A stretch of 64,000 nucleotides of DNA from Candidatus Eiseniibacteriota bacterium (lineage in GTDB: Bacteria; Orphanbacterota; Orphanbacteria; Orphanbacterales; Orphanbacteraceae): assembly GCA_029262235.1 (NCBI GenBank), contig JAJCZU010000007.1, positions 1 through 64,000 of the forward strand. The letters are read 5' to 3'. The notes beneath the pieces were generated by a model, which made no database searches, was not told the DNA's origin, and saw only the letters and a program-made list of their open reading frames with translations. Each line of letters begins with the position of its first letter. Positions within the stretch are counted from its first letter, which is position 1. This document shows positions 19,635-56,049 of this stretch, one piece after another. The position numbers and the translations under genes were made by a program.

Positions 19635-20270
19635 TCAGGACTTCATGCGAAGCTTCGGGACGACGAAGCTGTCGGGCGTCGCCGTGAACAGGTCGCGATT
19701 CTCCTCGCTCAGGAAGTAGAACGGGATCCCCCCGTGATCCGTGCTCGGCGAAAGCGAGTTCGGCTCGAACCGCTGCATCGTAACGGGATCGGTCACGATA
19801 CCGACGTACTCGAGCGGCTTTTTCGCGAACTTCTCGCGTTCACGGCTCGTTGCGAAGTAGAAGATTTCGTGGTTCACGCGGGTACGATGCTCGGCGTCCA
19901 TCCTGGCGGGCATGCGCGGATTGACGGCGCACCGCACGGAGAGGTCGAGTTCATCGAGGTACGGGTCGGGGTCTTGCACGAAGACCTTGACGCAGGGGCT
20001 TCAGCAGAATCCGATCGGGCGCCCGTTCACATACACGGCGCCCATCTTGCGGTTCAGCTTGACCTGGCGCACGATGCAGCGATCGTTCATCGAGAGCGTG
20101 CCGTCTTCGTATCGAACGCGGGGGAACTCCGCTGTCGTGTCCTCGTAGGCGGCCATCCCGTCGAACACCAGCGGCTCGGGCGGAACGTCGCGCGAACAGG
20201 CGCCGAGCAGAACGAAGAACGCGGCGGCGGCCAGGTTGCGTGGCATATCAGCGGACAGACGAACAGACAT
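19635..20270 (-). CDS. Candidate selenoprotein: lipoprotein with YHS/TRASH-like repeats and in-frame TGA
   Basis: Read through an in-frame TGA at 20001-20003, this is a 211-residue lipoprotein. The ATG follows AGGAGGAGG, and the signal ends in the lipobox LLGAC (Cys25). The TGA codon is residue 90 in VNGRPIGFC-U-SPCVKVF, then QDPDPYL. The protein at 38325-39134 has [16 protein letters not shown] then RANPDIYL at the same place, so the TGA replaces the second Cys of an FCCxxC metal- or thiol-binding motif. Two further YHS-like repeats follow (VNHEIFYFATSREREKF and GIPFYFLSEENRDLF). A SECIS-like hairpin lies just after the TGA. If TGA were a true stop, the conserved DPxxYL tail and both later repeats would be lost. 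Selenium machinery is not in this window. Confidence 0.75.
19965..19991 (-). promoter_or_regulatory. SECIS-like hairpin downstream of the TGA codon
   Basis: In the mRNA, GGTCTT pairs perfectly with AAGACC around the five-base loop CGTGC. Below this are a 2x2 internal loop and a three-pair GTC/GAC stem. The apical loop begins 20 bases after the TGA and has G as its second base. Both fit the published bacterial SECIS pattern (loop about 16-37 bases downstream, G in the first two loop positions). The hairpin falls in coding sequence, as bacterial SECIS elements do. Confidence 0.65.
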
Positions 20271-20420
20271 CGCGGACCTCCTCCTCTTTTCAGATTCGGT
20301 CCGATCGTATCGCGGCTCGAGGGGGGCGCGGGTAAAACGCGTGTAACAAGTGCGACGGAGCCCGCGCGCGGTGCGGCACGCCGGCACGGGAAAGGCGGGC
20401 AGGGCGCGACCGTGAAAGCG

Positions 20421-27750: not shown

Positions 27751-30700
27751 TCAGCGAATCAGGACGATGCGCGATGTGCGCGTGTCGTCATGCCCTTCAC
27801 CGCGTGCTTCGAGCCGCGCGAAATAGAGACCGGACGCGACCGGTTCGCCGCTGTCGCTCGTTCCGTCCCAGACCGGCGCGTGCCATCCCGCGGCGCGATG
27901 CCCGGCTTCGAGCGTGCGCACGGCGCGCCCCGTCAGATCGTAGATCACGAGACGGACGAGAGACGCTCCGGGCACGTGATAGCGAAGTGTCGTGACGGGA
28001 TTGAACGGGTTCGGGCTCGCGTCAGGCCCCGACACATGGACCAGCCGCGGTCCCGTCACGGCAATCGTTTCTCCCGCGCTCTTCGCGCGCGCCACGGCGC
28101 CGTCGCCGAGCGTAACGAGGAGCTCGCGCACCGTCAATGCTTCCGGCGCGCCGCCGCCCGACACGATGATTCTGTACGCGCCCGCGCCCGTATCGTCGTT
28201 CCAGAGAATCCGGAGCGTGCCGGCACGCTGTGAGAAAAAGACGAGGCCGCTTTCCGTATTCTGCGTCGCGCCCGCACTCTCCACCTTCTCGATCGCCGCA
28301 ACGCGCCCCGCGTCTTCGGGCCACGCGAGCGAAACAAACGCGCTCCGGCTCGCTTCGCCTTCCAGCGTCAGCAGCAGCGTATAACCGTCCGGGTTACCGC
28401 TTCCCGCGCCGGGCTCACTCGCCAGGCTCATGGTGTGCGGCGCGCCCTTCGCAAAGTCGGGCAGAAGGACCACGCCCTCTTTCACGATCAGCTTCCCGAG
28501 AAAGACCACGTCGCCGACACCGAACCGTCCGTCGCGATTCAGATCGATCTCGGCCGCATCGTACTCCGCGGGATCCACCCGGCCGAGAACGATGTCCGCG
28601 GCGCGCGCGACATCCGCAGGCGTCCGCTGAAAGTCGATGTCGATATCGCCGAGAGGACGCGGCGCGGGCGCCGTTGTGAACGTGATCGGGGGCGTTCCTC
28701 CGAGCCCCTGCCCGAAGATGTCCTGCAGGCCGCCGACCAGCAGAGAATACGTCGTGTTGAACCGGAGCGAGTCGACAGGATCCACGACAAGAACGCTTCC
28801 CTCTGTCTCGAGCCGGCGCGAAACGGGCACTTCAGTCTCCCCGCGGAAGAGCTGCGCCCCGCTCAGGCTGGCAGGGTCGATCGGCAGGCTGAAGATCACG
28901 CGCACGTTCGCGTCAAGAGCCACACCCGTAGCGAAGTTCGCCGGGTCGCTCGCGAGCACCGTGGGCGCGCTCTGAATCGTCTGGAAGTTGCGCCACGCGC
29001 TCGGGATGCCGGGCCCGCAGTCGTCGACGGTGGCAACGCGCCACAGGTAGCGCTCACCGAGGGCGAGCTCCCCGATCGTGACGGACGGCGACGCCGGGAG
29101 CAGTGAGTCGAGGACGATCTCGGACGCGTCAGGATCCTGGACCTCGAGATAGTAGCCGGTTGCGGCCGGTACCGGCGTCCAGCTCATCGTGACGGGAATC
29201 GGCAGATTCGACGCACCCGAAGGCGGCCCTGAAAGAACGGGTGCGATGAGGCCCCGCAGCGCGCTCCCTTCGGCCGTGGGGGAAGCGCCGGCGGTACCGC
29301 AGCGGCTCGCGCCGACCACGAAATACTCGTACGTTTCGCCGAGCGCCGCCGTCTCGTCACTGAACGTGGTGTCGGTCGGCGATGCGGACGCGATCCACTC
29401 GCCATCGCGATACACGCGTACCTCTTCCATCACGGACGCCGAGCGATTCCAGTCGAGACGCACGGCGTTACAAAGATCGTTACTCGCGCGGAGACCCGAA
29501 AGGCGCACGGGCGTTTCTCCCACGCGGACCAGCCATGGCTCCGAACGCGGGCCGTCGCCGCAGACGCCGACAGGCTGCAGCTCGTAGCTCCGGTCGCCGA
29601 TCGAGGTCATCAGAATGGACGCGCTGGAATTGCTTCCCGCCACGACCGCCACGGGGATCGCGTCCCCCGTCTCCCAAACCTTATAGAAGAGCGCGTTCGG
29701 GTTCGGGTCCCACACGAGTTCGATGTTCGAGCCCCGGCAGCCCACGGAGTCGGATTCCGAACTGAAGTTCGTCGTCAGGAATGCCGGACGGAAAGAACCG
29801 AAGTCGCGCGCCGTTTCCGCGTCGGCCGACACGCCGCACTGGTTCATCGCGGCAATGCGATATTCGTAGAGCCCCACGCCGCCGCGATCAACGAAGCGAC
29901 GAAGCGCCGGGGCGAGCGAACCCACCACGAGAGTGGTCGAGTCGTTTCTCGTGCGCGTGATCTCGAAACCGTCGAGCACGATCTGGGACTGCGGCATCGA
30001 CCACGTAATGACGACGGAATCGCAGAGCGTGTTCGAGGCCGTGACTGCGATGGGCGCCGGCGGACGAATCAGCGGGCGGCCCAGCGTGACGGTGACTTCC
30101 GCGGACTCGCCGCAACCGTTGAAGGAGCGCACGCGGTACGTCACGCTCTTCACCGGGAAATCGGTCGCGAACCCGTTCCCCGCGCCCACATAAACGGGAT
30201 CCACACGATCCGACCGCGTTACGCGGATCGAGTCGAGCTGCGGGCTCCAGGTCACGTGCACCGAATCGCAGAACGAGCTGTCGATCCTGACGTCAAGCGG
30301 CACTGCGGGCAGATCGAAGACACGCACGAGCTGGCCTTCGCCGAGCGGTCCGGGGCCGCATTCACTGACGGCGCGCACGCGGAACTCGAATTCGCCTGTC
30401 TCGAAGACGCTGAGACGCAGACTCGGCTGCGCCACCGTTGCGATCAGGCTCCCGTCGCGCATGACTTCGTAACTCACTGCGCCCGCAACGGCCTGCCAGC
30501 GGAGCGAGAACGAAGCCGACTGACACGCCTCGCCGACTTCCGCCGTCCAGATCGGAATGCCGGGCGTACGGTTCGCGCGGCCGAAGTCTTCCGCTGCGAT
30601 CGAAAGGGCGCAGCGGTTCTCAGCCTGCACACCGTAGCGCCGGGACGCGGCGTCGGGCGGGAAGTCGACCACGCGATACTCGTCCTCGCTCGATAGAACG

Positions 30701-33700
30701 GCAATCGTCGTCGCCGAGGCGCCGTCGTAACGAATGACGCGGAAGTTCTGCACTGGCTCGATCGTCGATTCGTATGTCCACGTCACGATCACGGAATCGC
30801 AGAGCCCGTCCGTGGCGTGCACGCTGTCGGGCGCGGGCAGGAATCCCGGGAACGCGAAGCCGGTGAGAAGCGTCGTCGAACCCAGCGTGCCGCATGCGTT
30901 GTAACTGCCCACATGATACGAACGCGGTCCGCCGTCAGGATGAGCGTCGCGCCAGCTCTGCACGCCGGCGCCGAGGAACGACGTGTCACCGGCCGACGCG
31001 ATCCACACCCGGCTGTCCGTGCCGTTCTGCCATACGAGATCGATGAATCCGCACGAGTCCTGCGACGCGGACACGTTCGTCGGCGGCGATGGGCTCGCGA
31101 GTACCGTCACGGGGAACACGATGCTCGCGGGGCCCGGGCCGCATGCCGTGAACGCCGTAACCGTGAAGTTGTAATCGCCCGTCTGCGAGCGCACGAACGC
31201 GAACGACGTGTCCACGGTGCTGACGACGAATCCTCCCTGCGACACGCGGTATTCGAGCACGTTCGGCAGCGCGTTCCATCGAAGCGTGAACGACTCTCCC
31301 GTGCAGCTCGAGGAATCACTTGCCGCGGCCCATGTCGGGGCGGCCGGAATGCCGAGCATCGTTCCTTCGTCCTGGCTTCCGTCGTTCTGCGGAGAACGGC
31401 CGCACTGATTCCGCGCGCTGACCCAGTACTCATAGTTCCCCGGCGGCGGCGTGTGCACGAAGGAATTGCTCGTGACCGGAAGCGTCGTGATCGAGTCGTA
31501 CACGCCTCCCGCATTCAGATCGCGGAACGAAATCTGGAAACCGAGCAGCGAGGTCGTTGACCCCGAATAGCTCCACGTGATCGTGATGCCCGTGCAGCCG
31601 CCATCCGTCGCCGAAACGTTCGAAGGCGCGCTCGGCGCCCCCGCGAGACGTCGCCCGACAACACCGGGGTCCGAGATGCGACCGCCGCAGACGTTCAGCG
31701 CCTCCACCGTGTAGATATTCGAAACGCCGCCTGTCGCGCCGTCATCGAAATATGTGGTGGCGGACGCGGACAGATTCGTCGCGATCGTGACGCCGCCTCT
31801 TCGAATCGTGTAGGACGAAGCGTTGGCCGCAGCCGACCAGGTCAGGCGAACGCCTTCGCAGAGATCCTGCGTCGCCGTGAGATTGCCCGGCTCTCCCGGC
31901 CCCGCGCGCCGCGTTCCCGTGTCGACCGCTCCCGTGGAAGTGCCGCACAGGTTCCGCGCCTTCACGGCATACGTGTACGACCCCGGCTGCACCGCAGTGT
32001 CCGTGAAGAAATAGGGCGCCGAGAACACTTCGGCGACCTGGTTTCCATTGCGTTCGACCACGTAGCTGAGCGCATTCGGAGACTGGTCCCACACGATATT
32101 GACGACCTGGCAGAGATCGTCCGTCGCACTGACGCCCGTCGGCGGTGCCGGCTGATCGAACGGGCGCTTGCCCTGCGCCGGGGAGCCGAAGACCGGCCCG
32201 CCCGAGCACCGGTTGAACGGGCCGATGCGATAGCTGTGCGTGCTCCCGTAAACCACGGCGGTGTCGAGGTATGCGGTGAGCCCCGGCCCGATCGAATCGA
32301 GAAACGCGCCGTCGCGCTCCACGCTGTACCCGCTCGCAAACGCGCCGCCGACCCAGGTCAGCTGAATGCCCGCGCAGTTGTCGACTGTAGCCACGAGATT
32401 CGTGACCGGAACCGGCGGCGGCAGAATCGTGCCGAGGATCCCGGTCGACAGAAGCGGAGTTGCGGTGCAATCGTTGAACGGCCCGATCTGATAAGAGTGA
32501 TCGATGCCGGGCGCGGCAGTCGTGTCGACGTACGCCGTGATATCGGCAAGCACCGTGTCGACGAGAACTCCACCCCGCATGATGACGTAGCCGAGCTCGT
32601 TCTCGACATCGCTCCATGTGAGATAGACGCCGTCACAGGAATCCGTCGACGCGCTGACCGTCTCCGGCGGCGGCGGCGAGTCAGGCTTTCTCGCCCCCTG
32701 AATCAGCGCCGGCTTCGAAGCGCCGCACGAGTTCAATGCGATCACCGAGTAGAGCGGGCTTCCGGTCACGGCGCTCGTGTCGCGATAGAATCCGACGGCC
32801 GCGGGAACGCGCGCGATTTCATCTACGAAGTCGCGGACGATCGAAACCGTATCGGCCTCGACCGGCGCAATCCATTCGAGGCGGATCACGCCGCACGAAT
32901 CCTGGCTCGCGGTCAGCGCGGTCACGTCCCCGGGTGCGGCAAAGGGGCGTGCCCCCTGAACGGTGTCGCCGTATACGGGCCGGTCCTCGGAGCAGAAATT
33001 CGCGCCGCCCACGCGGTAGTTGTATGTGCTCCCCGAAAGCGCCGTCGTGTCCAGGTGAGAAACCGACCCCGCGGGCAGGTTCGCGATCGGGAATCCGTTT
33101 CGCTCCACGATGTAAAACGCTTCCCCTTCGACATCGCCCCACGTCAGAAGGATGCCGTCACAACGGTCCTTCGTCGCGGCAAGCGCGGTCACCGGATCGG
33201 GGGGCAGCGGAAGGCGTTCGCCCTGGGCCGGGTCGGAGGGCGTGGGCGCGGGGAAACAGGCGCCGAATGCGCCTACGCGATACAGCGTCGGGAGCGCGCC
33301 GTCCGCGAGTGTGTCGAGATACGAAATCGCATTCGCGGGAAGCGTGTCGATGCCGATCAGATTGCGATAGATGATGTAGCCGTCTTCGTTCGCGACGTCG
33401 CCCCAGCTGATCATGATCCCGTCGCATCGATCCGTGGACGCCGAATCGATCACGGGGATCGCAGGCGGTTCCGCCGCGCTGCCGCTGTCGCCCGCCGCAG
33501 CCGATATGCCGCACGCGTTCGATGCGCGCACTTCATAAAACGACGCCCCGGCGGGCGGCGCGATATCGCGGAAGAAGAGCGGTCCGTCGCTCACGAGGCC
33601 GGCGAAGAGTCCGTCGCGGAGCACTTCGTAGCCGTCCGCTCCCGGTGACGCATCCCACGTAACCCGAACCACGGCACACGAATCATCGGTCGCTGAAACA

Positions 33701-36700
33701 GATGTCGGCACCATCGGGATCGCCGCCAGGCGCGTTCCGTTCGCCTCGCTCGACCAGGCGGCATCCACGATACATTTCGCAAGCGCGCCGACGCGATACG
33801 CCGCCGTCGTGCCGGCGGGAATCGTCGAATCCGAAAAACTCGTCACGTCCGCCGGAAGGTCGACCAGAAAGCCCCCGTCACGCTCCACGCGATAGCCGGT
33901 TTCGTTCGCGCCGTCGAGCCATGTCAACTGGACGAAGGCGCAGTCGTCGGCCGTCGCAAGCAGCCCGGTCACGGCGCCCGGTACCGCCGGCCGACTTCCG
34001 ATCGCCGCATTCGAAAGCGCGGGGGTGATCGAGCAGCCGTTGAACGCGCCTGCGTAATACGTGTACGTCACGCCGGCAACGGCCGACGAGTCGCGCCACG
34101 TCACGATGTTCGGGGGGAGCGTAACGAGCGGAATGCTGTCGCGATAAACGGTGTAGCCTTCCTCGCCCGCGACCTGTCCCCACGCAAGCTGCACATAGTC
34201 GCACGAGTCGACCGTCGCGGTAAACCCGGCCGGACTGAACGGCGCGTTCGGCGGGCGCGTTCCGCTGTCGGTTCCGGAATCAGAGGCACCGCAATCGTTT
34301 CGCGCACGAATGCCATACGTATAAATGACTGTCGGAAGGGCCGCGAGATCCTGGTACGACACCGCGGCCGGACCGAGACGCGCCAGAATGTCGCCGTTTC
34401 GTAGAACGAATTGAGAGTCCGCGTCCGCGCCCGGCGTCCACGTAACGTAAACGGCGCCGCAGGAATCGTCCGTCGCTACGACGTTCGAAGGCGCGCCGGG
34501 GGCCCCGGGGAGCGCTGTTCCCGCGTCTGTGTTGCCGAAGATGACGCCACCCGAGCACGTATTGAAAACCCCCACCCGATAAGAGAGCGCCACGTCGATC
34601 AATGCCGGCGAGTCACGATATCCGGTGGCGCCGGGCGCGATCGTGTCGATCGGTACGCCCTCGCGCTCGATCACATAGCCGTCTTCGAACGATACGTCGG
34701 TCCACGCCAGCACCACGACGCCGCACGAGTCATCGCTCGCCACAAGGTCGTTCACGGCGGAAGGCGCCGCCGGCAGCCGCGACCCCGCAAGCGAGGCGGA
34801 AACCGCCGGCGTGACCGAACACGCGTTGAACGCGCCGACCTGGTAATCGGCCGAGGTGCCGGGCGCAATCACCGCATCCGTATAGAGCACCGTGTTTGCG
34901 GGGACCGTATCGAGCGCTACGCTGTCCCGGTACACGATGTAGCCGTCTTCGTTCGCCCCGTCTCCCCACGTGATCTCCACATGATCGCAGAGCGAGTCTG
35001 AAGCGCTCGCAAGCGTCGGCGCGATCGGGGGCGGCAGCAGCAGCGTGCCGGCGTCAACCGTCGAGGCCGAAACGCCACACGAGTTACCGGCCGCCACCGC
35101 ATATTCGTACGTGCCCGGCAGCGGTGTGTCGGCAAACGTAAGCTGCACCGTCCGCGCGACAACGGCGCCGTCGCGATACACGAAGTACGAGTCCGCTTCA
35201 GCCGAAGCGCTCCAGCTCACGAACACCGCGGCACACGAATCGTCTGTCGCCGTTACGAGCGCCGGCGCAGCGGGCGCGTCCGGCGGGCGCGTTCCGACAA
35301 CCGAAACCGAATCGCTTGCGCCACAAACGTTGAGAGCCGCGATCCAGTACGTCGAGGCGCCGTTCGGGGCGGCCGTATCGCGGTAGAACGGATCCGCCAC
35401 GTTCGCCAGAAAGGTGTTCTCGCGGTACACGGCGTAGCCCGTGTCGCCGGGATCGCCGGTCCACGTCACGCGCACGAGACCGCACGAGTCGGTCGACGCC
35501 GCAAGCCCTGTCGGAGGGACGGGCAGCGGGAACACAGCCACGCTGTCGATCACCGTGATCGAGCGCCCGCATTCGTTCGCGGCGAACGCCGCATATTCAT
35601 ACACGCCGGGCGAAACGACTTCGTTGAACGTTGTCTCGCCCAGCAGAAACTGCGCGATCTCCGCGCCGCCGCGGAACAGAAACACGGTATCCGCGTCGGC
35701 GGCTGTGTCCCAGTTCAGGGTTACGCTCACGCACGCCGTGTCGCCCGCGGTGAATCCCGTCATCGCACCCGGCGCGCCGGGGAGAACCGTGCCCTTCGCT
35801 TCGGTCGAATCTGAAACGCCGCATTCGTTGCCTGCCGCAATCCCGTACACGAACGATCCCGAACCGCCCGGAGCATCCTCGTAGCCCAGTACCGCAGCCG
35901 CGAGCGAGTCGATCCGCGCGCCGTCGCGATATACGTAGTAGAAATCCGCGTCGACCGAAGCGGACCACGCCAGGACGACGACGCTGCACGACGTATCGCT
36001 TGCCGTCACCGTGACCGGAGGCGCCGGCGCACCAGGAAGCACCGTGCCGACCGCGACCGTGCTGTCGGGCGAAGTGCCGCACGCGTTTTCGCCGGCCACT
36101 CCGTAGACGTAGCTTCCGCCCGGCACGGAGTCGACATACGTGAGCGATGCCGAAGACACGGTGTCGATCGCGATGTTGTCACGGTAGATGATGTACGTGC
36201 CGTCGGTGACGGACAGGCTCCACGAAAGGAACACGACGGCGCAGGACGTGTCACTCGCCGTCACATTGGAAGGCGCTGCGGGTGCGGGCTGCAGGCGGCG
36301 TCCCGTAATCGACGACCCGAATGCGGGCGAAGAGGAGCACTCGTTGAACGGGCCCACCCGGTAGTTGTAGGTAATTCCCGAGAACGCGCTCGCGTCCAGG
36401 TAGACCGTGAGGTTCGCGCCGATCGTGTCGATCGGAACGCCGTCACGCTCGATCACGTACGCCTCTTCGCGCGGCACGTCGATCCACGACACTTCGATTC
36501 CCGTGCAGAGATCCGAGGTCGCGGACAGACCGCTCACGACCGGAGGCGCGGCCGGTTTGCGCCAGCCGTTCACGGTGCCGGAAGCGACCGGCACCGGTTC
36601 GCAATCGCTCCACGCTTCGATCCGATAGGAGACCGAGTCGGCCGCCGCAGCGGTTCCGTCGAGAAACGAAACGGTGTTCGGCGGCAGCGAATCGACCGCA

Positions 36701-37137
36701 ATGCTGTCGCGATACAGAACGTAACCCGCTTCGCCCGCAACATCGGTCCACGACAGCAGGATCCCGTCGCAGCGATCGAGCGAGGCGGTGAAACCCGGCA
36801 CGGTCGCAAACGGCGCCGGGCGCAACCCGATCGCGGTCGCCGAATCGCCGATACCCGGATTGTTGATGGCCGCGACCCAGTACGTCGTGTTCAGACCGAC
36901 CGCCGCGAGCGAATCGCGAAACGAATTCGTGATCGTGTAGCGCACCGTGTCTGCCGTAAATACGGCGAATGAATCAGCCGCCGGCTGCGTGTCCCACGCG
37001 AGAGCGATCCCCCAGCACGAGTCGACACTCGCGGTCAGGTTTCCCGGTGCCGAAAGCTGGGCATACGCCGGCGCCGCCATCGACAGAAGAACAAGCAGGA
37101 GTGGAAACAGTGCGATCGCGCGGTTCCAGCGGCGCAT
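27751..37137 (-). CDS. Giant Fn3-repeat protein with Big_5, dockerin and C-terminal sorting domain
   Basis: A 3128-residue exported protein. The signal peptide is residues 1-26 (LFPLLLVLLSMAAPAYA). From about 27 to 2715 come 31 fibronectin-III-like repeats of about 87 residues. Thirty begin with a pattern like ASDDSCxxVxLxW, and nearly all of them have a second Cys near the end (ARNxCGxS), so a disulfide per repeat is predicted; this is unlike ordinary Fn3. A Big_5-like domain follows (about 2717-2824), then a type I dockerin with two EF-hand-like loops (DIDIDFQRTPAD and DLNRDGRFGVGD, about 2825-2890). The end is a FlgD-like/T9SS-type domain (SPNPFNPVTTLRYHVPG). It is probably a surface adhesin or scaffold. 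A cohesin-like lipoprotein is coded just upstream. Confidence 0.9.
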   Translation of the reverse strand: MRRWNRAIALFPLLLVLLSMAAPAYAQLSAPGNLTASVDSCWGIALAWDTQPAADSFAVFTADTVRYTITNSFRDSLAAVGLNTTYWVAAINNPGIGDSATAIGLRPAPFATVPGFTASLDRCDGILLSWTDVAGEAGYVLYRDSIAVDSLPPNTVSFLDGTAAAADSVSYRIEAWSDCEPVPVASGTVNGWRKPAAPPVVSGLSATSDLCTGIEVSWIDVPREEAYVIERDGVPIDTIGANLTVYLDASAFSGITYNYRVGPFNECSSSPAFGSSITGRRLQPAPAAPSNVTASDTSCAVVFLSWSLSVTDGTYIIYRDNIAIDTVSSASLTYVDSVPGGSYVYGVAGENACGTSPDSTVAVGTVLPGAPAPPVTVTASDTSCSVVVLAWSASVDADFYYVYRDGARIDSLAAAVLGYEDAPGGSGSFVYGIAAGNECGVSDSTEAKGTVLPGAPGAMTGFTAGDTACVSVTLNWDTAADADTVFLFRGGAEIAQFLLGETTFNEVVSPGVYEYAAFAANECGRSITVIDSVAVFPLPVPPTGLAASTDSCGLVRVTWTGDPGDTGYAVYRENTFLANVADPFYRDTAAPNGASTYWIAALNVCGASDSVSVVGTRPPDAPAAPALVTATDDSCAAVFVSWSASAEADSYFVYRDGAVVARTVQLTFADTPLPGTYEYAVAAGNSCGVSASTVDAGTLLLPPPIAPTLASASDSLCDHVEITWGDGANEDGYIVYRDSVALDTVPANTVLYTDAVIAPGTSADYQVGAFNACSVTPAVSASLAGSRLPAAPSAVNDLVASDDSCGVVVLAWTDVSFEDGYVIEREGVPIDTIAPGATGYRDSPALIDVALSYRVGVFNTCSGGVIFGNTDAGTALPGAPGAPSNVVATDDSCGAVYVTWTPGADADSQFVLRNGDILARLGPAAVSYQDLAALPTVIYTYGIRARNDCGASDSGTDSGTRPPNAPFSPAGFTATVDSCDYVQLAWGQVAGEEGYTVYRDSIPLVTLPPNIVTWRDSSAVAGVTYTYYAGAFNGCSITPALSNAAIGSRPAVPGAVTGLLATADDCAFVQLTWLDGANETGYRVERDGGFLVDLPADVTSFSDSTIPAGTTAAYRVGALAKCIVDAAWSSEANGTRLAAIPMVPTSVSATDDSCAVVRVTWDASPGADGYEVLRDGLFAGLVSDGPLFFRDIAPPAGASFYEVRASNACGISAAAGDSGSAAEPPAIPVIDSASTDRCDGIMISWGDVANEDGYIIYRNLIGIDTLPANAISYLDTLADGALPTLYRVGAFGACFPAPTPSDPAQGERLPLPPDPVTALAATKDRCDGILLTWGDVEGEAFYIVERNGFPIANLPAGSVSHLDTTALSGSTYNYRVGGANFCSEDRPVYGDTVQGARPFAAPGDVTALTASQDSCGVIRLEWIAPVEADTVSIVRDFVDEIARVPAAVGFYRDTSAVTGSPLYSVIALNSCGASKPALIQGARKPDSPPPPETVSASTDSCDGVYLTWSDVENELGYVIMRGGVLVDTVLADITAYVDTTAAPGIDHSYQIGPFNDCTATPLLSTGILGTILPPPVPVTNLVATVDNCAGIQLTWVGGAFASGYSVERDGAFLDSIGPGLTAYLDTAVVYGSTHSYRIGPFNRCSGGPVFGSPAQGKRPFDQPAPPTGVSATDDLCQVVNIVWDQSPNALSYVVERNGNQVAEVFSAPYFFTDTAVQPGSYTYAVKARNLCGTSTGAVDTGTRRAGPGEPGNLTATQDLCEGVRLTWSAAANASSYTIRRGGVTIATNLSASATTYFDDGATGGVSNIYTVEALNVCGGRISDPGVVGRRLAGAPSAPSNVSATDGGCTGITITWSYSGSTTSLLGFQISFRDLNAGGVYDSITTLPVTSNSFVHTPPPGNYEYWVSARNQCGRSPQNDGSQDEGTMLGIPAAPTWAAASDSSSCTGESFTLRWNALPNVLEYRVSQGGFVVSTVDTSFAFVRSQTGDYNFTVTAFTACGPGPASIVFPVTVLASPSPPTNVSASQDSCGFIDLVWQNGTDSRVWIASAGDTSFLGAGVQSWRDAHPDGGPRSYHVGSYNACGTLGSTTLLTGFAFPGFLPAPDSVHATDGLCDSVIVTWTYESTIEPVQNFRVIRYDGASATTIAVLSSEDEYRVVDFPPDAASRRYGVQAENRCALSIAAEDFGRANRTPGIPIWTAEVGEACQSASFSLRWQAVAGAVSYEVMRDGSLIATVAQPSLRLSVFETGEFEFRVRAVSECGPGPLGEGQLVRVFDLPAVPLDVRIDSSFCDSVHVTWSPQLDSIRVTRSDRVDPVYVGAGNGFATDFPVKSVTYRVRSFNGCGESAEVTVTLGRPLIRPPAPIAVTASNTLCDSVVITWSMPQSQIVLDGFEITRTRNDSTTLVVGSLAPALRRFVDRGGVGLYEYRIAAMNQCGVSADAETARDFGSFRPAFLTTNFSSESDSVGCRGSNIELVWDPNPNALFYKVWETGDAIPVAVVAGSNSSASILMTSIGDRSYELQPVGVCGDGPRSEPWLVRVGETPVRLSGLRASNDLCNAVRLDWNRSASVMEEVRVYRDGEWIASASPTDTTFSDETAALGETYEYFVVGASRCGTAGASPTAEGSALRGLIAPVLSGPPSGASNLPIPVTMSWTPVPAATGYYLEVQDPDASEIVLDSLLPASPSVTIGELALGERYLWRVATVDDCGPGIPSAWRNFQTIQSAPTVLASDPANFATGVALDANVRVIFSLPIDPASLSGAQLFRGETEVPVSRRLETEGSVLVVDPVDSLRFNTTYSLLVGGLQDIFGQGLGGTPPITFTTAPAPRPLGDIDIDFQRTPADVARAADIVLGRVDPAEYDAAEIDLNRDGRFGVGDVVFLGKLIVKEGVVLLPDFAKGAPHTMSLASEPGAGSGNPDGYTLLLTLEGEASRSAFVSLAWPEDAGRVAAIEKVESAGATQNTESGLVFFSQRAGTLRILWNDDTGAGAYRIIVSGGGAPEALTVRELLVTLGDGAVARAKSAGETIAVTGPRLVHVSGPDASPNPFNPVTTLRYHVPGASLVRLVIYDLTGRAVRTLEAGHRAAGWHAPVWDGTSDSGEPVASGLYFARLEARGEGHDDTRTSRIVLIR
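28500..28665 (-). other. Type I dockerin segment of the giant protein
   Basis: Two calcium-loop motifs, DIDIDFQRTPAD and DLNRDGRFGVGD, are each followed by a helix (VARAADIVLG and VVFLGKLIV). The second has Asp, Asn, Asp, Gly and Asp at all the EF-hand positions; the first is looser. Dockerins bind cohesin domains with calcium. The neighbouring gene at 37273-38295 has a cohesin-like domain. Confidence 0.75.
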
Positions 37138-38324: not shown

Positions 38325-39134
38325 CTAGAACGCCAGGTGCCCGGGCCCCCGCACGAGAATGCCGCCGTAGAAGCTCCCGACAGCAACCAGGATCGCCGCC
38401 AGCACGAGCAGCGGAAGCCAGAGACGCCCCCCGAGTGCGGACCCGCGCCGCTCGAACCATTCGCGCGTCAGAAAAGCGAGCACAGTCGCAACCGAAGCCG
38501 CCACGCCGAGCCATCGATGCCGAAAGAGCGGCGTTTCGAGCGCCGCCCCGAAACCCTGCTTCCAGGCCGCCGCCCACCCGAGAGGCGCCGCCAGCAGCGC
38601 CGTGAGCGCCGCCGCGAACAGCAGAAACCGCGTGATCGGCCGCAAGGCCCGCAGATCCGCCATCAGCACGAACGCCTCACAAAGCAGCGCCGTCAGCAGA
38701 AACGCGATCGGAAAGTGGACCGTCATCGGATGCAGCTTGCCCAGGAAGCGGACGATCCGGGGAAACGCGCCCTCCTGTTCCTTCGCGCGCGCCGCCGCGT
38801 CCGCTTCAGCCGCCATCGTAGCCAGATAGATGTCCGGGTTCGCGCGGAATTTCGTCACGCAGCGGTCGCAGCAGAAGTAGATTCGCTCCCCCTCGTGATC
38901 GACAAAGAAGGCCGGGTCGATTTCCGTACCAGGCATGACGGGGCACGTTGTATTCTGCGCAAACGCCGCGCCCGGCCCGAACGACGCCGGCAGCCACGAG
39001 CCCGCAAACGGGCCCGCCAATACGACGGCCATCGCGATCGCTCCAAGTATCAGGAGTGGAAGTCGTCCCTTCCCTGCATTCATTGTCTTTCCCGATTCGG
39101 GCTCATTCTCCGTCCCTCGCGCTTCGTCATTCAT
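38325..39134 (-). CDS. YHS/TRASH-like metal-binding plus DUF2231 membrane protein
   Basis: A 269-residue membrane protein. After one membrane segment (about 25-45) comes a YHS-type motif: [12 protein letters not shown] (Cys64), then [12 protein letters not shown] (Cys88, Cys89, Cys92) and NPDIYL. This is followed by DUF2231-like helices starting [21 protein letters not shown]. The ATG at 39134 has GGAGG seven bases upstream. Such proteins are often linked with copper or other heavy-metal handling and cytochrome-type electron transfer. The FCCxxC motif is the Cys version of the FC-TGA-xxC motif in the candidate selenoprotein. Confidence 0.8.
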
Positions 39135-53610: not shown

Positions 53611-53632
53611 TCGTGTACAAATGATTTCACGT

Positions 53633-53782
53633 TTCTTCGGGCTCTCAGGGAAAACGGTGCAAAACCGTTGCGGGCCCGCCGCTGTAACCGGGGACGAAAC
53701 CTGCAGTTCAGCCACTGTGACTCTGTCATGGGAAGGCGCAGGAAGTAGGACGATCCGGGAGCCAGAACACCTACCCGAAGAA
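53633..53782 (+). ncRNA. Cobalamin riboswitch
   Basis: The stretch has the conserved cobalamin-aptamer segments in order: AAAACGGTGCAAAACCGTTG, CGGGCCCGCCGCTGTAACCG, GCCACTGTGACTC, GGGAAGGCGCAGGAAGTAGG and the B12-box-like GGGAGCCAGAACACCTACC. The closing P1 stem is TTCTTCGGG with CCCGAAGAA. It lies 48 bases upstream of a BtuB-like receptor gene and should lower its expression when cobalamin is plentiful. Confidence 0.93.
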
Positions 53783-53829
53783 CCAACCGATGCAGGCTCG
53801 CGGATCGCGCCGGCATCCGGTCGTTTACC

Positions 53830-56049
53830 ATGCAGACAGATTTTCCAGGACGCCCGGCGCGGTTTTCGCGTGCCGTGTTTCGTCTCGTCGTGCTGGCCCT
53901 GCTTTGCGGGGGGGCGGCGGCATCCGTGCACGCGGAAGACGGTGACGGCGGCGCAGCGGTTGCTCACGCGGGCGCGGCGGTTGCTCACGCGGACGCGGCT
54001 GCAGACACGAGCAAAGCGGTCGACCGGATCACGGCAGGCCGGGCCGCGACCGACACGATCGATGTGCCGGCTTCGACGATGCGGGCACGGGAGCAGGCGC
54101 TCCGCTCCCCGTACCCCGTAACCTGGATCGACTTCGCCGCCGCGAACGCGAACCTGCACGACCTGTCGGACCTTCTCGAAAGCGTCCCCGGCGTGCGCGT
54201 AAAACGGTACGGCGGCCTCGGCGCGCTCGCCACCCCGTCGGTTCGCGGCAGCGGCGCGAGCCAGGTCGAAGTGTTTCTCGACGGCGTTCCGCTGAACTCG
54301 GCGCAATGGGGCATCACGAACCTGAGCGAACTGCCCGTGCAGCATCTCGACCATGCCGCGATCTATCGAAGCGGCTCCTCACTCGCTTCGGGGCGCATCG
54401 GCATCGGCGGCGCGCTGCATCTTTATACCCGCCGCGCGGACACGCCCCGCACGACCTTCACCTCGTCCGCGGGCAGCTTCGACACGTATCAGAATGCTCT
54501 CGTGCACGCGCGCCCGGTCGGGCCCGCGCAGCTGCTCGCATCGTATTCGCGAACCGAAAGCGACGGTGACTTCACGTATCGGTACGATCCCGGCACGCGC
54601 TTTTTCAATGAAGATGATGACAGTGAAGTGCGTCGTGAGAACAATCGTTTCCACGAAGAGGGCCTGCTTCTCAAACTGGCCTCGCCGCTTCCCGGTGGCG
54701 CGTCGCTCCACGCGCAGGCTGACTGGTACGATCGTGACGGCGGCATTGCGGGACACGGAAACCTGCTCTTCGAAGCGGCTTCGAGCGAGGGTAGCCGGCG
54801 GCTTGCGTCGCTGCTCGTGAACGCGCCGCCGATGGCGGGGGGGCGGCTGAAGAGCGAAGCCGGCGGTTACCGGCTCGCGCGCACCGCGCGCTACGAGAAC
54901 CCTCTGCGTGAAACCGGGCTCTCGTCTTTTCCCGTGAATCACGAAACGGAAGCGAGCGGGGTCAGGGCGAACAGCGCGTATCACTGGCTCGAAGCGGGGC
55001 AGACGATACACGTCTTCGTCGAGCGAAGAAGCGAGCGCTTTACGCCGACCGAAGATCGCGCGGGCGCAGCAGGCGCGGGGGGTTCGGGTGCGGCGCAGCC
55101 CGCGACGTTCGCGCGCGAGCGTACCCTTCACTACTGGGGCGCCGAGAATCGTGCTTCGTTCGCCGGCGATCGCGTTTCACTCACGGCTTCCGTTCAGGGT
55201 CAGGAGTCCGAAGACAACTTTCACGGACAGGTTTCGTTCGGACGGCCGCCGGAAGCGCGAGCGGAACGTCACCGTTTTTCTTTCACGGGAAACGCCTTCG
55301 GCGCCCGCTGGGAGTTCGCGCCCGGTTTCGCGGCGCGCGCCTCCCGCACGAGAAGTGCGCGCTTCCCGACACTGTTCGAGCTCTTCGGCACCAGCGGCGA
55401 AGTCGTAACGAACCCGGCGCTCGTCCCGGAACGGGCCACGTCATGGGACGGCGGCGTGCGCTATGCGCGCGGGGGCTTCATGGCCGACCTCGGGGTCTAC
55501 CATGCCGCGCGCGACTCGATCATTTATCTCGTGCAGAACTCGCAGCGCGCGTTCGTCGCGCAGAATCTCGAACGCGTCATAGCGAAGGGCGTCGAGTTTG
55601 AATTCGAATGGCGCCGGGGGCGTTTCCATTGCGGCGGCTCGTTTCTGTCGCAGGACGTGCGCCACGACGGCACGATCGCGCGCTGGAACGATCGCTGGCT
55701 CCCGTATGTTTCCCCGCGCGAGTATGCGCTCCGTGCGGGCGTGCGCGCCGGCGCGTTCCGATTCGGCTACGACGTTCTCTACGCCGACACGTTCTATCGC
55801 GATCGCGCGAACTCGCCCGAGAACCGGGCCGACTCGCGCACACTGCACAATGCAAGCGTCCGCTGGCAGCAGTGGCAATCCGTCGCGTTCGATTTCGACA
55901 TGCGCAACCTGACCGACGACACTTCCTACGACGTGTACGGCTATCCGATGCCGGGCCGTTCCTACTACATGACCATGACGCTCGACGCGCCGACACTCAC
56001 GCATTCGGGCAACAAGAACCGCATACCCTGGAACGAGGACACACCATGA
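53830..56049 (+). CDS. btuB: TonB-dependent outer-membrane receptor, BtuB-like
   Basis: A 739-residue outer-membrane transporter. A signal peptide is followed by a low-complexity AVAHAGAAVAHADAA repeat. The plug domain begins near residue 95 (LHDLSDLLESVPGVRVKRYG, VRGSGASQVEVFLDGVPLNS, SLASGRIGIGGALHLYTRR). The rest is a 22-strand-type barrel ending in aromatic-rich strands. I do not see an obvious Ton box. The cobalamin riboswitch immediately upstream makes vitamin B12 or a cobinamide the most likely substrate. The stop overlaps the next gene (ATGA). Confidence 0.88.
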   Translation: MQTDFPGRPARFSRAVFRLVVLALLCGGAAASVHAEDGDGGAAVAHAGAAVAHADAAADTSKAVDRITAGRAATDTIDVPASTMRAREQALRSPYPVTWIDFAAANANLHDLSDLLESVPGVRVKRYGGLGALATPSVRGSGASQVEVFLDGVPLNSAQWGITNLSELPVQHLDHAAIYRSGSSLASGRIGIGGALHLYTRRADTPRTTFTSSAGSFDTYQNALVHARPVGPAQLLASYSRTESDGDFTYRYDPGTRFFNEDDDSEVRRENNRFHEEGLLLKLASPLPGGASLHAQADWYDRDGGIAGHGNLLFEAASSEGSRRLASLLVNAPPMAGGRLKSEAGGYRLARTARYENPLRETGLSSFPVNHETEASGVRANSAYHWLEAGQTIHVFVERRSERFTPTEDRAGAAGAGGSGAAQPATFARERTLHYWGAENRASFAGDRVSLTASVQGQESEDNFHGQVSFGRPPEARAERHRFSFTGNAFGARWEFAPGFAARASRTRSARFPTLFELFGTSGEVVTNPALVPERATSWDGGVRYARGGFMADLGVYHAARDSIIYLVQNSQRAFVAQNLERVIAKGVEFEFEWRRGRFHCGGSFLSQDVRHDGTIARWNDRWLPYVSPREYALRAGVRAGAFRFGYDVLYADTFYRDRANSPENRADSRTLHNASVRWQQWQSVAFDFDMRNLTDDTSYDVYGYPMPGRSYYMTMTLDAPTLTHSGNKNRIPWNEDTP

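Follow-up and report, generated by a model that had tools for sequence, protein, structure and literature searches.

Between positions 20270 and 19635 on the minus strand of a 64,000-nucleotide stretch of DNA from a Candidatus Eiseniibacteriota bacterium (contig JAJCZU010000007.1; the whole stretch is called the window here), an in-frame TGA interrupts an otherwise open reading frame, which raises the question of whether the codon ends a gene or is read through as part of one. From 20270, the frame consists of ATG, 89 codons, TGA 20003-20001, and then 121 codons to TGA 19637-19635, bearing out an earlier sequence-only reading that had described an open frame on both sides of the TGA. The gene and in-frame TGA that it had proposed were confirmed, and the strand, which it left unstated, is minus. 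Judging from the comparisons reported below, what looks like a gene severed by a stop codon is almost certainly a single gene for an exported protein of a metal-binding type that contains selenocysteine (Sec). The run gaggaggagg before the ATG is a strong Shine-Dalgarno-like signal. Translation with TGA as Sec gives MSVRLSADMPRNLAAAAFFVLLGACSRD...NDRCIVRQVKLNRKMGAVYVNGRPIGFC-U-SPCVKVFVQDPDPYL..., and the tryptic peptide spanning Sec90 in the predicted product would be MGAVYVNGRPIGFC(Sec)SPCVK. The DPDPYL tail, which had been placed right after the TGA, is present 10 residues after it.

Coordinates of the predicted selenoprotein gene, its features, and a Cys-containing relative in the window
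Feature	Coordinates	Strand	Basis
Predicted complete selenoprotein gene	19635..20270	-	211 residues, Sec at 90; ends at TGA 19637-19635; homologues
Shine-Dalgarno-like purine run aagaggaggagg	20277..20288	-	Upstream of ATG 20270; from sequence
Predicted lipoprotein signal peptide, lipobox LGA-C25	20196..20270	-	Sequence; AF2 helix 9-22
First YHS/TRASH-like domain with C65, C89, Sec90, and C93	19953..20093 (approximate)	-	Pfam PF04945; invariant columns
In-frame TGA, predicted selenocysteine 90, motif GFC-U-S-P-C	20001..20003	-	TGA in 12/12 homologues
Putative bacterial SECIS hairpin GGTCTT / CGTGC loop / AAGACC	19970..19986	-	Begins 14 nt after TGA; covariation; MFE -9.6 kcal/mol
Second YHS-like repeat, no Cys	19800..19889 (approximate)	-	Profile match to tandem-YHS proteins; AF2 strand-strand-helix 129-150
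Third YHS-like repeat, no Cys	19656..19796 (approximate)	-	Weak NF041384 match at residues 176-203; AF2 176-197
Cys-containing relative, YHS (FCCDRC) fused to DUF2231 membrane domain	38325..39134	-	Profile comparison

The lipobox of the window protein was judged by eye, and a similar one is found in most homologues but is not evident in five. The description of the product as a lipoprotein thus appears to fit the window protein and most of its relatives but not those of genomes G011, G062, G063, G064, and G076, which have an N-terminal signal with no evident lipobox. The product is predicted to be exported and, in the window species, is probably held by a lipid anchor on the periplasmic side.

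The search for homologues covered two phylum sets, a single scan of GTDB contigs by pattern, plasmids, and viral contigs. Protein search of the phylum set of the window (7 genomes) returned three further copies, whose matched parts share 90, 46, and 46% identity with the query and which have exactly one internal TGA each. The GTDB contig scan returned the same three copies and one more, in the MAG KW1-S15_115, and the 80-genome phylum set to which this MAG belongs contributed seven additional copies, again with one TGA each. No homologue was found in the plasmids or the viral contigs searched. The 11 homologues are 91 to 37% identical to the window protein, all come from draft or uncultured-bacteria genomes, and their tree is only partly resolved. 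Each (11/11) has exactly one internal stop, which is always TGA and always lies within GFC-U-x-P-C; the terminal stops among the 12 members differ (TGA, TAA, or TAG). Thus, at the codon where the sequence-only reading had allowed for either TGA or TGC/TGT among homologues, all have TGA, and the downstream part is conserved. No Cys orthologue was found among 87 genomes. Proteins with Cys at the Sec position are distant homologues only (FCC YHS proteins), and in the remaining weaker matches, which are ordinary proteins with YHS repeats, the aligned site reads FCE, FCS, FCA, or FCC. In the part that follows the TGA, the two nearest genomes show 29 synonymous versus 11 nonsynonymous codon differences, and changes by codon position (1/2/3) number 5/8/36, a pattern which indicates that the tail is under protein-coding selection. 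Overall, these sequence comparisons strongly support the reading of TGA 90 as selenocysteine. Since gene-calling software that takes every TGA for a stop divides the protein, it has probably gone unrecognized in the majority of deposited genomes that carry it.

The hairpin proposed from the sequence, with six pairs and a five-base loop whose second base is G, starting 14 bases after the TGA, proved exact in its geometry (GGTCTT at 19986-19981, loop CGTGC at 19980-19976, and AAGACC at 19975-19970). It was also correctly said to fit the rules for bacterial SECIS elements, which call for a loop of 3 to 9 nt, a stem of 4 to 16 bp, G in the first two loop bases, a spacing of 16 to 37 nt, and an MFE of <= -7.5 (PMC13188914); the values here are a 5-nt loop, a 6-bp stem, G at position 2, a spacing of 20 nt, and an MFE of -9.6 kcal/mol. 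The rule alone is weak evidence, since a permissive form of it (stem of >= 6 bp) finds a match after 22% of codons in the genes of the window; the exact hairpin geometry follows 0.26% of them. The folding energy of single sequences is not unusual (z of -1.16 for the window; range, -0.03 to -1.97). What settles the question, at the level of sequence comparison, is the covariation of the hairpin across homologues rather than its fit to the rules. All stem positions pair in the 12 sequences (72/72 cells), and three of the six stem pairs have changed on both sides (A-U/G-C, U-A/C-G, and C-G/U-A). Pairing falls to 22 to 65% when the partner strand is slid by 1 to 3 columns, and the observed pairing was reached in 0 of 20,000 trials in which the 3' halves were shuffled among sequences, although these shuffles ignore relatedness. 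Residues +6 and +10 after Sec vary jointly (V/D, I/D, T/G, A/S, and I/G), and through this joint change the stem survives. The chance that codon choice would give a full stem with the amino acids as they are is 0.39 for the window and 0.015 to 0.022 for the T/G and A/S members; it is therefore the covariation in these last members that carries the argument.

The genes selA, selB, selC, and selD, proposed by the sequence-only reading as a check on decoding, are all present in the same genome. The window genome has selB (370 bits versus a cut-off of 242), selA (538 bits versus 268), and a tRNA-Sec with anticodon tca called by both Rfam and ARAGORN. It also has two selD genes. The first (L026) carries Sec, with an in-frame TGA of its own (CGUAAK); the second (L027; G000 C3:267519-268475) is fused behind a domain resembling NAD(P)H-disulfide oxidoreductases and has no internal TGA. 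Among the phylum sets, selB scores above its cut-off in 7 of 7 genomes in that of the window and in 73 of 80 in that of KW1-S15_115. Of the 11 homologue genomes tested for selA, 10 gave a match and one, G001 (82% complete), gave none; selB was missing above its cut-off from G046 and G062. Because the last two have selA and G001 has selB, these absences are likely due to gaps in the draft assemblies.

The Pfam YHS model (PF04945) matches all 12 members (best E of 7.3e-12), the window protein itself scoring 28.8 bits, just under the cut-off of 30.3 (E of 1.2e-6). C65, C89, Sec90, and C93 are invariant in the 12 members, with Sec90 directly after C89, and so is Pro92 in U-x-P-C. The ligands of YHS/TRASH domains lie in the motifs D/C-x-x-C and C-x3-C (PMC4626032), and their equivalents in the window protein are N62-x-x-C65 and C89-x3-C93, with Asn62 at the first ligand position. 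The two further YHS-like repeats that had been claimed ahead of the real stop were found. A confident AF2 model built from the 12 sequences (mean pLDDT of 83, with Sec modeled as Cys) consists of small strand-strand-helix units and places Sec at a hairpin/helix junction, the helix starting at residue 91; it replaced a poor model based on 5 sequences (pLDDT of 41). The PDB fold search gave nothing significant, its top matches being methane and toluene monooxygenase hydroxylases (E of >= 0.25); a toluene hydroxylase carries a YHS domain (PMC4626032). The PDB sequence search gave no useful match.

No neighborhood conserved across the family was found. In the window, a zinc-protease-family gene, rimK, and an AstE-like gene follow the selenoprotein gene, an arrangement that recurs in the sister species G001 alone, and the other homologues lie beside unrelated genes. 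In G064, a soft-metal resistance cluster (L062, 3701-12028; merR / CopZ N-terminal protein / MerT-HMA / CusA-HlyD-OEP) adjoins the selenoprotein gene. There, the gene is divergent from merR-copZ-merTP, whose products are MerR, a protein of the CopZ N-terminal family, and a MerT-HMA protein, and convergent with genes for a CusA/CzcA-type pump and the HlyD and OEP components that go with it. In the intergenic region between the divergent genes, the merR side has TTGACC-19 bp-TATACT around the dyad GTACCAAGGTAC (GTAC-N4-GTAC). A 19-bp spacer around a dyad is the known layout of MerR-type promoters. Sec forms are known in the group of which the CopZ-type neighbor is a member. As one case in twelve, the metal cluster is suggestive only. 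We also found a cobalamin riboswitch in the window (53622-53792, plus strand; 99.6 bits), upstream of a 739-codon ORF (53830-56049), and a 3,128-codon ORF (27751-37137, minus strand) that starts with a signal-like peptide; giant repeat proteins similar to the latter lie near the selenoprotein gene in L031 and L032.

We propose that SelB would bind the hairpin that lies shortly after UGA 90 and deliver Sec-tRNA-Sec made with SelA and SelD, and that the ribosome would then read UGA as selenocysteine. Given the sequence and its covariation, decoding of UGA 90 by this route is very highly probable. The first YHS/TRASH domain keeps the three metal-site cysteines of its relatives (C65, C89, and C93) and would add Sec90 beside C89. 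Outside the cytoplasm, the resulting Cys3-Sec cluster may trap a soft metal ion, e.g., Hg(II), Cu(I), or Ag(I), and either hold it or pass it on for efflux. For the two YHS repeats that lack Cys, a structural role or the binding of a partner is probable. Metal capture is inferred from the domain, the conservation of the ligands, and the one gene cluster; points against the proposal are that only one homologue neighborhood is an obvious metal cluster, that the window protein scores just below the Pfam YHS cut-off, that U-x-P-C resembles redox motifs, and that selB or selA is missing from the three homologue genomes named above. We give the proposal as a whole, an exported selenoprotein whose Cys3-Sec first domain would trap a soft metal outside the cytoplasm, an even chance of being right. 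The combination in which Sec90 is itself a metal ligand, the exported YHS/TRASH domain has a Cys3-Sec soft-metal site, the family exists only as selenoproteins, and the SECIS stem shapes nearby pairs of amino acids is more tentative and falls somewhat short of that. The predicted family places Sec beside the ligands of a classical metal-binding domain, outside the cell, and is a clear example of a protein sequence constrained by a signal in the RNA. The small size of the domain makes the question of whether bacterial Sec is used as a metal ligand directly testable.

The main alternative is a selenoprotein in which Sec90 is a redox centre that forms a selenenyl-sulfide with C89 or C93 and reduces or oxidizes periplasmic substrates. 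The invariant Pro92 of U-x-P-C is consistent with such a role, as are the position of this motif at the start of a helix in the AF2 model, as in thioredoxin-like motifs, and the UxxC or CxxU redox motifs of many catalogued selenoproteins (PMC13188914). However, the domain is YHS/TRASH-like rather than thioredoxin-like, none of the three metal-ligand Cys residues has been lost, not even C65, which lies far from the motif, and the neighborhoods have no conserved redox partner gene, so that we consider redox catalysis possible but rather doubtful. A role in sensing or buffering selenium or a metalloid, or a structural role in the envelope apart from metal or redox chemistry, would suit the varied neighborhoods and the two Cys-free YHS-like repeats, but the invariant Cys3-Sec cluster points to direct chemistry and the metal cluster in G064 to metals, and we regard such a role as improbable. 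The possibility that the TGA is a true stop, in a decayed or split gene or through a sequencing error, gains from an internal GTG (19979) that opens a downstream ORF, yet it is extremely unlikely, given that the 12 genomes have TGA and never TAA or TAG, that conservation persists between the TGA and this GTG, that the hairpin covaries, and that coding selection continues past the TGA; gene decay and assembly error were rejected on the TGA conservation, the covariation, and the downstream selection. Genome-wide reassignment of TGA, or general readthrough in place of the Sec system, has nothing in its favor beyond the in-frame TGA itself and is hardly credible, as 18 of the 45 ORFs picked in the window end in TGA, as does the selenoprotein gene itself, and complete Sec machinery and a hairpin are present.

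The preferred reading, an exported selenoprotein with a putative Cys3-Sec soft-metal site, can be set beside several known systems. One is the YHS-DUF2231 protein of the window (39134-38325), described by the sequence-only reading as a paralogue whose second Cys aligns with the TGA; profile comparison indeed places its FCC on FCU, a Cys/Sec pair. However, this protein has a single YHS and a membrane domain and is not orthologous. An exported protein, at loci L024 and L037 (G004 and G008, C18), has three tandem CC-type YHS units (RFCCKGC, RLCCKMC, and RFCCDGC) and is encoded close to two YHS-DUF2231 genes. The YHS/TRASH domains of Cu-ATPases, L24e, and the Mycobacterium phlei adenylyl cyclase (PMC4626032) likewise have three conserved Cys and a CxxxC near a beta-hairpin/helix junction, whereas here Sec follows the second Cys, Asn62 occupies the first ligand position, and three tandem repeats occur in an exported protein. 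An adjacent Cys-Sec is shared with the CU-motif metal selenoproteins (SaoC, MerB-like SaoL, HgcA, MbdU, and CopZ-family NF045877), most of which are linked to Hg or other soft metals (PMC13188914), but none of their HMM models matches here. None of the NCBIfam models (June 2026) fits above its cut-off.

A YHS-domain selenoprotein with the motif GxU (NF041384) is already in the literature (PMC13188914, PMC9312934, PMC2398784) and is included in a 2026 inventory of 119 prokaryotic selenoprotein families and subfamilies (PMC13188914). The claim that a protein of the present kind had not been described therefore fails for a YHS selenoprotein as such and stands for the exported FC-U-xPC family with three repeats, since that site and that architecture were found in no catalogued selenoprotein family. 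Membership in NF041384 was rejected (best score of 25.2 bits versus a cut-off of 70). The model matches 9 of the 12 members weakly, and the best-scoring part of the window protein is residues 176 to 203, in the third repeat, not the Sec site. The two thus share a YHS-type domain, with Sec in some members of NF041384, and the third repeat resembles part of its profile, but the Sec motif is GxU there versus GFC-U (G-x-x-U) in 12 of 12 members here, with FC-U-xPC in the first of three repeats. By the rule of the inventory, under which the same domain with a different Sec site makes a different family (PMC13188914), these proteins form a separate one. The family is new although its domain class is known, and it adds one to the approximately 120 prokaryotic selenoproteins listed.
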